From positions 1 to 40,654 of the forward strand of contig JADFMT010000003.1 of NCBI GenBank assembly GCA_022563755.1: a DNA stretch of 40,654 nucleotides. Direction: 5' to 3'. Under the pieces are notes generated by a model. That model worked only from the letters and a program-made list of their open reading frames with translations. It did not search any database and was not told where the DNA came from. Source of the DNA: Patescibacteria group bacterium. GTDB taxonomy: Bacteria > Patescibacteriota > Minisyncoccia > HO2-45-28. The stretch's first letter is position 1. Every line of letters starts with the position of its first letter. Made by a program: the position numbers and the translations under genes. Shown here piece by piece: positions 8,016-20,427 of this stretch.

Positions 8016-8087
8016 GCCGCGGTAGCTCAGTGGTGGAGCGCTTGCTTGAAGAGCAAGGCGTCGGGGGTTCGATTCCCTCCCGCGGCA
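8016..8087 (+). tRNA. tRNA-Phe (GAA)
   Basis: Acceptor GCCGCGG with CCGCGGC, anticodon loop TTGAAGA (GAA), T-arm with GGGTTCGATTCCC, discriminator A8087. Immediately followed by structured-repeat copy 1. Confidence 0.95.
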
Positions 8088-8379
8088 CTCAAAACAAAAA
8101 GAATGGCATCGCGTCATTCTTTTTGTTTTGAGTTGATGATAGAAACAGGAATCGAACCCTACGAAAGGGGGTACCAGCCGCGAGGCTCTTTCGCAAAGCG
8201 AAAAGCCCCGTCTCCGGGGAAAACTGTAGTTTTCCCCGTGGCGGAAAACAGCGAGACTGAGCTTGTCGAAGCCGAGCGCTAGAAATCCTTCGACACTGAG
8301 CTCAGGACGAAGTGCCGAAGGATTTCTAGGGAGGACCATAAGCGACGACGGGTTCTAGGAGCGCAGCGACGGATTCCCT
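8088..8379 (+). repeat. tRNA-linked structured repeat, copy 1
   Basis: First of three related ~270-290 bp elements. In tRNA orientation it has: a perfect 18-bp hairpin (8088-8105 with 8115-8132); a T-arm-like stretch GGAATCGAACCC; the conserved GAAAGGGGGT and CGCGAGGCTCTTTCGC; the palindromes around CGGGGAAAACTGTAGTTTTC; a CTAGAAATCC/GGATTTCTAG stem with inserted CTTCGACA-type palindromes; and an end CGACGGATTCCCT. The last eight bases (GATTCCCT) repeat part of the tRNA-Phe T-arm. ORFs read through it (8001-8339 minus, 8046-8282 plus) are judged non-coding because the pattern of conservation is in stems. This element plus the promoter at 8404 fill the gene-free stretch up to 8503. Confidence 0.8.
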
Positions 8380-10173: not shown

Positions 10174-12386
10174 GACTCAACCATTAAAAGATCCTTGCTG
10201 CTCGCACGAACCGCTTCCCATATATTCTCTGTAATATGGGGTAGAAACGGATGGAGCAATCTCAGGCAGTCCGTCAATACCAAGACTAAAATCTCTTGCG
10301 TGCGTGTTTTAAGCGCGGGGTCGCCCAGCTGCTTTTTTGAGCTCTCTAAATATTGATCACAGAAATCATGCCAGAAAAAATCATACAGTTTGTGAAGTGC
10401 GTGCCCAAATTGATAATGGTCGATGTGACGGGTTACTTCTTTTTTTGTTTTTTTAAGAGACTCCAAAATTTTTCGGTCTTCTTTCGTTTTAGGATGCGGT
10501 TTTTTAAAGTAGTCCCCCCTCGCCCCCGCTTCGCCAAGGCTACGCAGGGCGAGCAAGGCTTCGGGGGGCGACTCATTCCGTTCGAGAACGAATCGAGCCG
10601 CATTCCACATTTTATTTAAAAATTTCTTCCCTGCAACCAGCGCTTCCTCAGACCAATGGATGTCCTGCGTACCCATGGTTTGCCACGTAAGTCCAAAGCG
10701 AAGCGCGTCCGTTCCATACTTCTCGATCATGACTATTGGATCTACAACATTACCAAGACTTTTAGACATCTTCCGGCCTTTTTGATCAAGCACCGTGGCA
10801 TGAGTATAACTTGTTTTAAACGGGCTCTTTTTGGTAAATTCAAGACCCGAGAAAACCATGCGCACGATCCAGAGAAAAAATATTTCGCGCGCCGATGATA
10901 TCATATCCGTAGGATAAAAAGTTTTTAGATCCTTGGTTTTTTGAGGCCACTCAAGGGTTGCAAACGGCCAGAGGGCTGAAGAAAACCACGTATCAAGCAC
11001 ATCCGGAATTTGCTTGTAGCGAGCGTCACAATGCTTGCATGCGGGTTCTGTTTTTGAAACAACCATGTCAATACATTTTTCAATATCTTTTTCTCTCCCG
11101 CGCTTTGGAATACATACGGGATCATGTTTCCAAACCGGCAGACGGTGACCCCACCAGAGTTGACGCGAGATATTCCAGTCCTTCACCTGTCTTAACCATT
11201 CAAGAAAGATCTTCTTTCGCTGCGGCGGAATAAAGGTAATTTTCTCTCCCCGAACCACCTGTCTCGTTTTTTTAGCAAGCTCGCGCATGGAAAGAAACCA
11301 CTGCAACGAAACCAGAGGTTCAATGATGGTTTGACACCGTTCGCATCTGCCAATCCGATGGATATATTCCTCTTCTTTCTCAAGCAGCCCCGCTTCTCTT
11401 AATGCCTCCACCACCTTTTTTCGGCATTCAAGCGTCTTCAATCCCATGCAAATGGAACCGGCCTCTTTTGTCATTCTTCCCTGCTGGTTAATCACCTCAT
11501 ACGATAGAAGTTTATGACGGAGCGCAATCTCAAAATCTAAAGGATCGTGTAGAGGAGTTATCTTTACAGCCCCCGTTCCAAACTTCTGGTCAATCTCTTT
11601 GTCGGCAATAATCGGAATCGTTCTGTCTTTAATCGGAAGTCTTGCCTTTTCGCCAACAAGATTTTTGTAGCGAGGATCGCTCGGGTGAACCGCAACCGCA
11701 GCATCTCCCAGCATGGTCTCGGGCCGCGTTGTGGCAACCGTGATAAAGCCGCCTGCTTCGAGTGGATATTTGATGAACCAAAGACTTCCTTTCTCTTCTA
11801 CGTGTTCCACTTCGAGATCAGAAATAGATGTTTGGCATCGGCTACACCAATTAATGATCCGTTTTCCCTGATAAATCCATCCTTTTTTGTAGTAGTGCTC
11901 GAATGCTGCCTTCACGGCTTCTTGGTACTCATCATCCATGGTGAAGCGGCCTCTAGTCCAATCACACGAAAGACCCAACAATTTTAACTCTTGATCAATG
12001 GCGTCCCCATTTTCTTTCATCCACTGCCACATTTTCTCAAGAAACTTTTCTTTCCCCAAATCAAATCGCGTCTTGTTTTCTTTTCGAAGTTCCCGCTCCA
12101 CAACATATTGCGCAGCAATACCGGCATGATCTTTGCCGGGCAAAAAAAGGGCTTTGTATCCTTGCATGCGTCGCTTACGAATAACGATGTCGGAGAGGAT
12201 ATTTTCCAGTGCATGCCCAACATGAATATGGCCCGTAATATTGGGTGGGGCCATCATAACGGTAAAGGATTTTGGACGCTTGCCGGGTAATTTGTCGGGA
12301 TTAAAATAACCGCTTTTTTCCCATTTTTTATAGATATTCTTCTCTACCTTGTTAGGGTCGTAGGGTTTGGAGAAATCTACTTTCAT
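10161..12386 (-). CDS. valS: Valyl-tRNA synthetase (short form)
   Basis: A 741-residue class I synthetase that attaches valine to tRNA-Val. It starts FSKPYDPNKVEKNIYKKWE, has the HIGH-type signature HVGHA within MAPPNITGHIHVGHALE, the editing domain with TTRPETMLGD, zinc-ligand-like CSRCQ and CERCQ pairs, and KMSKS in KGRKMSKSLGN. It ends soon after the anticodon-binding domain; the C-terminal coiled-coil arm of longer ValRS (about 870-950 residues) is absent. The start is four bases from the tsaD stop and the end overlaps prsW, giving a tsaD-valS-prsW operon. A GC-rich palindrome (10514-10571) inside the gene encodes an Ala/Leu-rich insertion (ALLALRSLGEAGARG). Confidence 0.96.
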   Translation of the reverse strand: MKVDFSKPYDPNKVEKNIYKKWEKSGYFNPDKLPGKRPKSFTVMMAPPNITGHIHVGHALENILSDIVIRKRRMQGYKALFLPGKDHAGIAAQYVVERELRKENKTRFDLGKEKFLEKMWQWMKENGDAIDQELKLLGLSCDWTRGRFTMDDEYQEAVKAAFEHYYKKGWIYQGKRIINWCSRCQTSISDLEVEHVEEKGSLWFIKYPLEAGGFITVATTRPETMLGDAAVAVHPSDPRYKNLVGEKARLPIKDRTIPIIADKEIDQKFGTGAVKITPLHDPLDFEIALRHKLLSYEVINQQGRMTKEAGSICMGLKTLECRKKVVEALREAGLLEKEEEYIHRIGRCERCQTIIEPLVSLQWFLSMRELAKKTRQVVRGEKITFIPPQRKKIFLEWLRQVKDWNISRQLWWGHRLPVWKHDPVCIPKRGREKDIEKCIDMVVSKTEPACKHCDARYKQIPDVLDTWFSSALWPFATLEWPQKTKDLKTFYPTDMISSAREIFFLWIVRMVFSGLEFTKKSPFKTSYTHATVLDQKGRKMSKSLGNVVDPIVMIEKYGTDALRFGLTWQTMGTQDIHWSEEALVAGKKFLNKMWNAARFVLERNESPPEALLALRSLGEAGARGDYFKKPHPKTKEDRKILESLKKTKKEVTRHIDHYQFGHALHKLYDFFWHDFCDQYLESSKKQLGDPALKTRTQEILVLVLTDCLRLLHPFLPHITENIWEAVRASSKDLLMVESWPK
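10514..10571. repeat. GC-rich palindromic repeat inside valS
   Basis: An imperfect nested palindrome: CCCCCCTCGCCCC at one end, GGGGGGCGA at the other, with TCGCCAAGGC and GAGCAAGGC arms in the middle. It is far more GC-rich than valS and adds residues not expected in ValRS, so it looks like an in-frame insertion of a dispersed palindrome. Confidence 0.6.
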
Positions 12387-15053: not shown

Positions 15054-15163
15054 ATTTAGATAATACTACAAACCTTATGTTCCGTGTATTTAATAAAGCT
15101 ATGTGAAATGTTAGAACCTCTACCAAATTACTGAAAAACCGTTTAGTTTTCAGAAAAACCAGT

Positions 15164-15443
15164 GGGAGAATCCGCTTCCCTGCCTGCCGGCAGACAGGGC
15201 TAGAACTCGTCGTCCCTCGACTTCGCTCGGGACTCCCTAGAAACCGAGGGGGTTTCTAGCGCTCGTCCGCCAGCTGGCGGACTCACTGTTTTCCGCCACG
15301 GGGAAAACTACAGTTTTCCCCGGAGACGGGGCTTTTCGCTTTACGAAAGAGCCTCGCGTCTGGCACCCCCTTTCGCGAGTTCGATTCTCTAACTCATCAA
15401 ATCAAAACAAAAAGAACGACATAAAGCCGTTCTTTTTGTTTTG
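15164..15443 (-). repeat. tRNA-linked structured repeat, copy 2 (no tRNA attached)
   Basis: On the minus strand it begins with a hairpin (15443-15428 with 15418-15403, sequence type CAAAACAAAAAGAACG) nearly identical to that of copy 1, then AGAGAATCGAACTCGCG, the GAAAGGGGGTGCCAGACG core, the GGGGAAAACTGTAGTTTTC palindrome, a GTCCGCCAGCTGGCGGAC module, the CTAGAAACC stem, a CTGCCTGCCGGCAG module and ends GCGGATTCTCCC. End inverted repeats are GAGAATC/GATTCTC. No intact tRNA adjoins it. With flanking motifs it accounts for most of the gene-free 15054-15619; the remainder holds only an AT-rich stretch with a small hairpin near 15131 and the promoter at 15560. Confidence 0.8.
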
Positions 15444-15476
15444 TGCACTTTAGGGGAATAGGTTAGAACCTCTCTT
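15444..15476 (+). repeat. Dispersed motif copy 2
   Basis: TGCACTTTAGGGGAATAGG followed by TTAGAACCTCTCTT. Shares 20 of about 22 leading bases with copy 3 at 16641. AGGTT-AG-AACCT forms a small stem. Confidence 0.6.
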
Positions 15477-19170: not shown

Positions 19171-19830
19171 CTATTTAATATACCTTGATTGATCCTGAGA
19201 TTGAGACGGCATACCCCGAAATCCCGGCAGGGTTGAAGATGGCCCTGATGGTTGTGGTTTTTGAGGCGGAGAGGATGAGAGCGGTTTTGGTTGAGGTGGC
19301 TGTGATGGCTGGGGTGATCGAGGAGGTGGAGTCGGTTGGGATGACTGAGGGCCTTGAGGTAGAGATGGTAAAGACGGCTTTAGTCCGCCAGCTGGCGGAG
19401 TAGGCTGAACCGGCGGGGTAGGTGATTTAGGAGGCTGAAATGGAGATTTCTGAGGTGGAGTCGGTTGTGGAGATGGGGACGGTCGAAACGTTGGTTGGGT
19501 GGATGGAGACGGTCTTGGTTCTGCCGGTTTAGATGGATAGACGGGTCCGATTGTGGGTGCTCGCTCATTAAACTTAACGGTTGGCTCTTTTTCTGTAACT
19601 ATTACCACCTTCTGCTTCTTTCGTTCTTGCAAAAAAACATATACGAAAGTGCCCAATGCCAGTAGTAAAACAACGTATCGCAATATACTAACGAGCGCGC
19701 CAGAGACCACAACCGTGGAATCCTGTGTAACAATCCCGCTATAGACTCCGGTTCCAAAGAAAATCAGAATATTCAACATAATCCATGCCGCCACCCCCAA
19801 AAATAGTGCTTTAATTGTTACTTTGATCAT
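19171..19830 (-). CDS. Proline-rich membrane protein
   Basis: A 219-residue protein. Two transmembrane helices lie near residues 7-28 (ALFLGVAAWIMLNILIFFG) and 40-66 (VVSGALVSILRYVVLLLALG); after VYVFLQERKKQK the rest, about 130 residues, is a low-complexity tail rich in Pro, Ser and Gln (repeats of type PSPSPQPTPP and QPSQPPQP). By charge the tail is cytoplasmic. CPR genomes often encode such small proteins with unknown roles. The ATG follows ACGGGGT and lies at the edge of a long inverted repeat (19831-19972). A TCCGCCAGCTGGCGGA palindrome lies within the tail and encodes TPPAGG. Co-transcribed with rluD. Confidence 0.75.
   Translation of the reverse strand: MIKVTIKALFLGVAAWIMLNILIFFGTGVYSGIVTQDSTVVVSGALVSILRYVVLLLALGTFVYVFLQERKKQKVVIVTEKEPTVKFNERAPTIGPVYPSKPAEPRPSPSTQPTFRPSPSPQPTPPQKSPFQPPKSPTPPVQPTPPAGGLKPSLPSLPQGPQSSQPTPPPRSPQPSQPPQPKPLSSSPPQKPQPSGPSSTLPGFRGMPSQSQDQSRYIK
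19384..19399. repeat. Short palindrome inside the Pro-rich gene
   Basis: TCCGCCAGCTGGCGGA, a perfect 16-bp palindrome identical to one inside structured-repeat copy 2. Confidence 0.75.
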
Positions 19831-19972
19831 ACCCCGTAAAGCAAAATCGAATGTTTCTTGCTAAATTCCAAAATAACCATTCGAATCTGCTGTTATTAAT
19901 ATAAACTTGTAATAATACATAATTATACCTCGCAAGAAACTAAATTTAGCTTTCAATTTTGCCTTACGGGGC
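19831..19972. mobile_element. MITE-like inverted repeat next to a start codon
   Basis: A 142-bp segment with imperfect inverted ends: CCCCGTAAAGCAAAATCGAA (19832 on) and the reverse complement of its right end, CCCCGTAAGGCAAAATTGAA. Inner arms GTTTCTTGC (19853-19861) and GCAAGAAAC (19932-19940) also pair. CATA lies directly outside both ends, like a 4-bp target duplication. The left edge touches the ATG of the Pro-rich gene, so in RNA the hairpin could hide its ribosome site. The rest of the gene-free stretch to 20353 holds short GC-rich palindromes (20036-20053) and structured-repeat copy 3. Confidence 0.55.
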
Positions 19973-20073
19973 ATATATTATAGTATACCACAATGAATGC
20001 GAGTGCGCGCTGCAGGATTTGCCAGCCCAAGGCTGGTCCGCCTCGGGCGGAACACCTAATAATCTTTAAATAG

Positions 20074-20091
20074 GTGGGCGTTGGAGGACTC
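20074..20091 (-). repeat. Exact copy of the tRNA-Val 3' end (attachment-site-like)
   Basis: GTGGGCGTTGGAGGACTC is identical to 20353-20370, the last part of tRNA-Val(GAC). The two copies bound structured-repeat copy 3 as 18-bp direct repeats. Confidence 0.8.
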
Positions 20092-20352
20092 CGTCGCTTC
20101 CTGCCGGCAGGCAGGCGCTTCTAGAACCCGTCGTCCCTCGATTTTACTCGGGACTCCCTAGAAACCCCTCGGTTTCTAGCGCTCGCTTCGCTCGCTGTTT
20201 TCCGCCACGGGGAAAACTACAGTTTTCCCCGAAGACGGGGCTTTTCGCTTTGCGAAAGAGCCTCGCGTCTGGCACCCCCTTTCGTGGGTTCGAGTCCCAA
20301 CAAACACAATACACAAAATAACAAACACCATTAAAAAGATGTTTATTATTTT
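20084..20352 (-). repeat. tRNA-linked structured repeat, copy 3
   Basis: On the minus strand, directly after tRNA-Val: an AT-rich hairpin (CACAAAATAA with TTATTTTGTG), TGGGACTCGAACCCACG, the GAAAGGGGGTGCCAGACG core, the GGGGAAAACTGTAGTTTTC palindrome, a short GCGAGCGAAGCGAGCGC module, the CTAGAAACC/GGTTTCTAG stem, GGGAC/GTCCC stem, a CCTGCCTGCCGGCAGG module and the end GCGACGGAGTCCTCC. The core is nearly identical to copies 1 and 2. The ORF at 20144-20395 that spans it is not considered a gene. Confidence 0.82.
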
Positions 20353-20353
20353 G

Positions 20354-20427
20354 TGGGCGTTGGAGGACTCGAACCTCCGGCCTTCTCGATGTCACCGAGA
20401 CGCTCTAACCGGCTGAGCTAAACGCCC
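20354..20427 (-). tRNA. tRNA-Val (GAC)
   Basis: Minus strand: acceptor GGGCGTT with AACGCCC, anticodon loop GTGACAT (GAC) on stem TCTCG/CGAGA, T-arm GGAGGTTCGAGTCCTCC, discriminator A. Its 3' 18 bases are duplicated at 20074-20091. Confidence 0.92.

Follow-up and report, generated by a model that had tools for sequence, protein, structure and literature searches.

Short hairpin elements at duplicated gene ends in Patescibacteria, and a possible snap-back route of insertion

The third repeat copy in the DNA studied here (the window, a stretch of 40,654 nucleotides that forms contig 8 of a 781-kb, 47-contig Patescibacteria genome) appears to belong to a Patescibacteria-wide family of nonautonomous mobile DNA elements that may be inserted by copying, with a snap-back on the target, a reading to which we give a probability of about 0.5. 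By sequence comparison, the copies were shown to consist of a body inserted near the end of a gene, with that gene end duplicated and a short inverted copy of the break abutting the body. The typical layout is P|Q-Y-q'-body|Q-Y, where the upstream Q-Y is the intact gene end, the downstream Q-Y is the displaced copy, and q' is the inverted copy of the junction (i.e., the guide). Because the gene end is present upstream of the body and the old end is left downstream, the target gene stays whole.

At copy 3, an exact 18-bp direct duplication of the tRNA-Val 3' end had been reported in the preliminary description, and we found it as described, with GTGGGCGTTGGAGGACTC at positions 20074 to 20091 and again as the tRNA 3' end at positions 20353 to 20370 (Table 1). 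Given the ARAGORN placement of tRNA-Val(GAC), the 18 bp span the T-loop to the final base of the tRNA, and the number of matches expected by chance is 0.01 even with 3 mismatches allowed (dinucleotide-preserving shuffles). The G+C content is 60% in the copy 3 body versus 44% in the window. An inverted T-arm at the tRNA-proximal end of the copy had been overlooked, and within it GGTTCGAGTCC provides an 11-nt match to the host T-arm. In a sister genus (genome G001), tRNA-Arg(tct) and tRNA-Val(gac) are followed after ~26 bp by a homologue of the window open reading frame (ORF) at 19171 to 19830. This comparison with a sister genome had been named beforehand, and G001 carries neither the element nor a second tRNA end; the outcome expected of a local duplication was not seen. 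Since this element-free locus has the same neighborhood, copy 3 is taken to be an insertion. The window also holds a second inverted repeat (~19832 to 19977; TACCCCGTAAAGCAAAATCGAATGTTTCTTGC ... GCAAGAAAC...TTTTGCCTTACGGGGCATA) in the interval from the displaced tRNA end to the gene that follows; by eye, it has no relation to the element.

Table 1. Positions of the element copies, their parts, and their host genes in the window
Feature	Position	Strand	Basis
tRNA-Phe, host of copy 1	8016-8088	+	ARAGORN
q' of copy 1, inverted tRNA-Phe T-arm (GGAATCGAACCC)	8148-8159	+	Sequence, coordinate check
Copy 1 body	8160-8371	+	Repeat comparison, model match
Short tRNA-Phe end remnant, copy 1 (GATTCCCT)	8372-8379	+	Sequence, coordinate check
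Remnant-like right flank of copy 2 (GGATTCTCCC on - strand)	15164-15173	-	Sequence, coordinate check
Copy 2 body, no adjoining tRNA	15174-15375	-	Repeat comparison, model match
q' of copy 2, inverted, T-arm-like (GAGTTCGATTCTC)	15377-15389	-	Sequence, coordinate check
Displaced tRNA-Val 3' end (remnant)	20074-20091	-	Exact 18-bp repeat; missing at G001 empty site
Copy 3 body	20092-20284	-	Own-genome repeat and model R1 match at 20129-20232
Body hairpin H3	20158-20179	-	Compensatory changes in 7/9 pairs
Body hairpin H1	20208-20231	-	Compensatory changes in 7/8 pairs
Extra hairpin, in several copies of the source genome, missing from most relatives	20233-20270	-	Alignment A1
q' of copy 3, inverted tRNA-Val T-arm (GGGTTCGAGTCCC)	20286-20298	-	Sequence reading, coordinate check
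Terminator-type hairpin, between tRNA-Val end and inverted T-arm	20315-20352	-	Sequence reading
Q-Y, intact tRNA-Val 3' end, upstream copy of the duplication	20353-20370	-	Exact 18-bp repeat
tRNA-Val(GAC), host of copy 3, intact	20353-20427	-	ARAGORN and Rfam RF00005

The repeat copies reported earlier for the window were recovered as well: the stretches at ~8148 to 8379, 15164 to 15389, and 20074 to 20298 share 80 to 96% identity over 94 to 161 nt, and the shorter match to tRNA-Phe claimed for the far end of copy 1 (positions 8372 to 8379) is real. Copy 2 is bracketed by a 12-bp direct repeat (GTTAGAACCTCT, at 15110 to 15121 and 15462 to 15473) and has a hairpin 83 to 86% like the hairpin after tRNA-Phe at copy 1; from these two features, a hairpin-plus-element unit may have moved there. 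A model search of the contigs of the source genome gave ten copies, mostly directly 3' of tRNAs (Val, Phe, Met, Tyr, Lys-CTT, Lys-TTT, and Gln), and the further copies beside other tRNAs had escaped the earlier reading. At nearly all of the tRNA-adjacent copies, the host 3' end is repeated beyond the element from the T-loop onward (as a short stretch only for tRNA-Phe and with mismatches for Lys-TTT), and an inverted T-arm lies at the near end, in degenerate form at Lys-CTT. The bodies show 72 to 95% aligned identity to copy 3, and the ends instead follow each host tRNA. One copy in this genome (L079, contig 31, ~11874 to 11982) has ends specific to tRNA-Gln with no tRNA gene nearby, which suggests that the element unit can also land off target. 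In the source genome and some others (the window copies, L124, and L027), a short TAG...GCGACG piece separates GGTTC from GATTCC in the displaced T-loop, a pattern that would suit a further small insertion into the remnant.

Of 384 genomes sampled from the class (ultra-small bacteria), 130 gave matches to a covariance model built on the body, many with at least 7 copies; in a phylum-wide sample of 380 genomes, the model matched 28, 15 of them outside the class. Bins named Candidatus Niyogibacteria and Parcubacteria are among the carriers. The body is conserved and rich in hairpins, mostly ~85 to 150 nt long and about 190 to 210 nt in the window copies, with no recognizable gene and no room for an ORF. 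Bases pair in 97.7% of the alignment cells, with 271 compensatory cells versus 72 in shuffles; the alignment was fitted to the model and hence favors structure, and slid controls were nevertheless far lower. Wobble G-T pairs and A-C mismatches are about equally rare (14 versus 9 of 1808 cells), and this near-absence of wobble pairs suggests, without proving, that the constraint acts on the DNA rather than on an RNA. An Rfam search gave no match to the body. A group I intron was considered, as q' resembles an internal guide sequence across the break, and was ruled out because bodies can be shorter than 100 nt and have no Rfam match. Phage matches by blastn were confined to the tRNA end of the query, a strict-pattern search of viral contigs, including IMG/VR, found none, and a plasmid search gave no match to the element.

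The two target-derived parts of the layout were scored in 108 copies against controls with swapped gene ends. A 40-nt zone at the left body end was complementary to the upstream gene end (q'; score of at least 11) in 56% of copies (2.3% in the controls), and the right flank repeated the upstream gene end in 64% (again 2.3% in the controls), although one or the other part is undetectable in a third or more of the copies. In 55 copies q' and the duplication locate the same site, and in 52 of these q' ends 0 to 3 nt from the body, a spacing that is nearly constant in tRNA and protein targets alike. At tRNA targets, q' often extends 4 to 7 nt further upstream than the detectable duplication, so the exact break differs between places. 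Of the 85 copies in which q' or the duplication was detectable, tRNAs account for 42, all in the same orientation and nearly all 15 to 27 nt from the 3' end, and tmRNA accounts for 2. Copies inside the protein gene ends of relatives, likewise overlooked before, were found at 5' ends (fusA, dnaX, and rplP) and at 3' ends (fusA, rpmG, rpsI, rplL, a pilC-like gene, a glycosyltransferase gene, and others), the names being read from the translated sequence. Several recent copies have 100% identical duplications of 50 to 112 nt, which extend as far as or beyond the stop codon, the start codon, or the tRNA end. At L058, a microhomology of 5 nt marks the rejoining point. At L093 and L077, q' is part of the displaced copy, and three loci (L083, L084, and L098) are tandem or compound.

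Some loci carry further peculiarities. In genome G005, head-to-tail repeats of the entire 163-bp unit occupy a tRNA-Arg and a tRNA-Glu gene (L083 and L084). In L036 (genome G003, contig 32), tRNA-Trp and the element form a 336-bp tandem array with no fewer than two tRNA genes and three bodies; its unit carries a remnant of an rpmG end, and here the repeats have amplified a tRNA gene. GTGA, CTGA, or a similar sequence replaces GTTC before the displaced T-loop remnant in L069, L077, L100, L129, and L137, a change that spans several families and is rather consistent for random decay. Beside the tRNA-Val(CAC) gene at L048 (G001), the displaced end differs in acceptor sequence from the intact tRNA, and the whole tRNA may thus have been replaced.

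Near-identical bodies occur in different genes of the same genome. In G242, bodies 98% identical lie in different genes with different flanks, and the similarity ends where the bodies end; in G307, a genome with seven copies, two bodies in different genes with different flanks are 100% identical, with sharing that extends about ten T-arm bases past the body ends. Each of these bodies is flanked by the sequence of its own host gene. Alternatively, the identical bodies could have arisen by gene conversion between old copies. In the assemblies, the sole source of sequence here, neither an excised nor a single-stranded form of the element appeared.

The footprint, an inverted copy anchored at the break and a direct duplication whose length varies, is the one expected of primed synthesis, snap-back, and rejoining. 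Under this scheme, a nick at P|Q would free a 3' end (Q') as primer, and synthesis would run from it across the structured body and thereby copy the body into the target; the polymerase would then snap back at the break and copy ~8 to 27 nt of Q' to make q', and rejoining further along the gene would create the Q-Y duplication. The template would more likely be single-stranded DNA than RNA. Insertions into essential genes would survive only when the duplication covers the gene end, and an established locus may then pass between strains by homologous recombination, carrying the gene end of the donor with it. L093, L077, L083, L084, and L098 need an extra step beyond snap-back. That hairpin DNA copied into a gene, with the polymerase snapping back to install both an inverted target copy and a repaired gene end, constitutes a new mode of insertion is a tentative proposal, which we put at somewhat below even odds.

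The preliminary description had read copy 3 as the footprint of site-specific integration into a tRNA gene, and insertion at the tRNA 3' end is upheld by the empty site in G001. The rival reading as a mere local duplication has the 18-bp repeat itself as its sole support; it is refuted by that empty site and by the same arrangement at other tRNAs and genes, where swapped controls are near 2%, and we consider it practically excluded. A direct repeat of the tRNA 3' end around an insert, with an empty site in a relative, is a feature of integrase elements that copy 3 shows, and the earlier reading is unsupported in its other part, integration by a site-specific tRNA integrase, because each body has many targets, q' abuts the body, and G307 has seven copies with no tyrosine recombinase found. 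The occurrence of one body in many tRNAs, tmRNA, and protein genes implies that there is no fixed attachment sequence, and a single attachment core for the element family was not found. The same facts weigh on the possibility that the element is a satellite of a tyrosine recombinase, a small circle inserted at the T-loop with the 18 bp as attR. The 3' ends of tRNA and tmRNA are classical targets of such enzymes, and a tyrosine recombinase (PF00589) is present in 57 of 60 genomes; however, there is usually one gene in each genome with or without the element, and unrelated targets for one body and an inverted target copy also speak against a satellite, which we find quite improbable. As a mover, this enzyme is argued against by co-occurrence less strongly than the Y1 transposase, reverse transcriptase, TnpB, and IS110 transposase, all of which co-occurrence argues against.

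Another possibility is that the element replaces gene ends and spreads only by homologous recombination or natural transformation, with old target lineages and bodies homogenized by gene conversion (compare the mORFs of fungal mitochondria). In fusA of G003, the intact and displaced starts differ at 11 of 62 nt with 0 amino acid changes, whereas random changes would be silent in 22%; since all differences are silent, the displaced end is undecayed and the intact end is probably foreign, and recombination rather than a fresh duplication seems to be involved there. The same sites in dnaX and in the glycosyltransferase gene are occupied across several families, and searches for Y1_Tnp, RVT_1, PF00589, TnpB, and IS110 gave no mobilizer, both of which also fit, and homologous recombination alone may perhaps be enough for spread between species. 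It leaves unexplained, however, how a q' complementary to each new target originates, why there are target-specific copies in dozens of different genes, and why recent duplications are identical to the resident gene, and we regard recombination as the only route as unlikely. An IS200/IS605- or RAYT-type element moved as single-stranded DNA (REPIN-like), with a Y1 transposase acting in trans and q' as an extended guide, would suit hairpins under strict Watson-Crick constraint and an opposite strand that starts with CGTC, like the CGTC-tagged REPs. But of 30 genomes chosen mostly for high copy number, Y1_Tnp was missing from 18, the source genome among them, and it was no rarer in the element-free genomes used for comparison; moreover, to our knowledge, IS200-type insertion leaves no duplication of 18 to 112 nt, and we doubt this explanation strongly. 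A SINE-like or ribozyme-like RNA element would account for target duplications of variable length and a structured body through target-primed reverse transcription; RVT_1, however, was found in only 15 of 60 genomes, without association with the element and not in the source genome, and the lack of an Rfam match and of almost all wobble pairs makes such an RNA element very improbable. TnpB was found in 2 of 30 carriers at an E value of ≤0.001 (one above the curated cutoff) and IS110 transposase in 4 of 30. The recurrent ORFs near copies are mostly the target genes and their usual neighbors, and the GIY-YIG and HTH-type ORFs beside a few of the copies seem to be there by chance. No homing endonuclease is encoded in the body, which is too short for one, and nuclease ORFs lie near only a few copies.

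Compared with known systems, the element is closest in its working to the mORFs of Glomus mitochondria, which encode a LAGLIDADG or GIY-YIG endonuclease, insert at the C-terminal end of a gene, supply a new end in place of the native one, which they push downstream, and show horizontal transfer of the gene end (PMC3630166). Like them, it replaces a gene end and displaces the native one; unlike them, it has a body of ~85 to 210 nt in which no gene was found, has an inverted target copy beside the body, and also enters tRNAs, tmRNA, and the 5' ends of genes. With the tRNA elements of tyrosine integrases it shares tRNA and tmRNA 3' ends as targets, a restored tRNA, and a direct repeat resembling attL and attR, whereas those elements are many kilobases long and this one has hundreds of base pairs, no integrase gene, many unrelated targets per body, and q'. 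We know of no integrase footprint with an inverted target copy abutting the insert. Guide-like complementarity to the target recalls IS200/IS605 and IS110, and single-stranded DNA hairpins recall the former, but most carriers lack a matching transposase, the guide of the element is copied from the target (8 to 27 nt), and the direct duplication is long. Casposons are DNA transposons that have been reported to lie at tRNA genes and to be flanked by target site duplications, as seen here; compared by description only, they differ from the element, which has no casposase gene and no fixed terminal repeats, its terminal arms following each target. REPINs and the CGTC-tagged REPs, for which no transposase is known (PMC3733652), are likewise short, palindromic, noncoding mobile repeats. 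Unlike these repeats, the element has a longer, multihairpin body, few copies per genome, no RAYT association, and insertions inside gene ends with a long duplication.

Overall, no family tested shares all of its defining features with the element, with casposons compared by description only, and the element's footprint matches none of the insertion enzymes tested. The open-access literature that we searched holds no account of such an element, and we know of no mobile element with the same footprint, i.e., a working gene end and an inverted target copy beside the body. It is on this footprint that we call the element categorically new, a label that would fall if the mover proved to be a known enzyme class. 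In Patescibacteria, whose genomes are very small, the family is a widespread and apparently undescribed class of mobile DNA, and it explains the orphan fragments of tRNAs and gene ends found there. Through its insertions, essential genes acquire rewritten ends, in at least one case, seemingly, a foreign one. If snap-back copying is true, a gene-less sequence of ~100 nt can live inside essential genes across a bacterial phylum.
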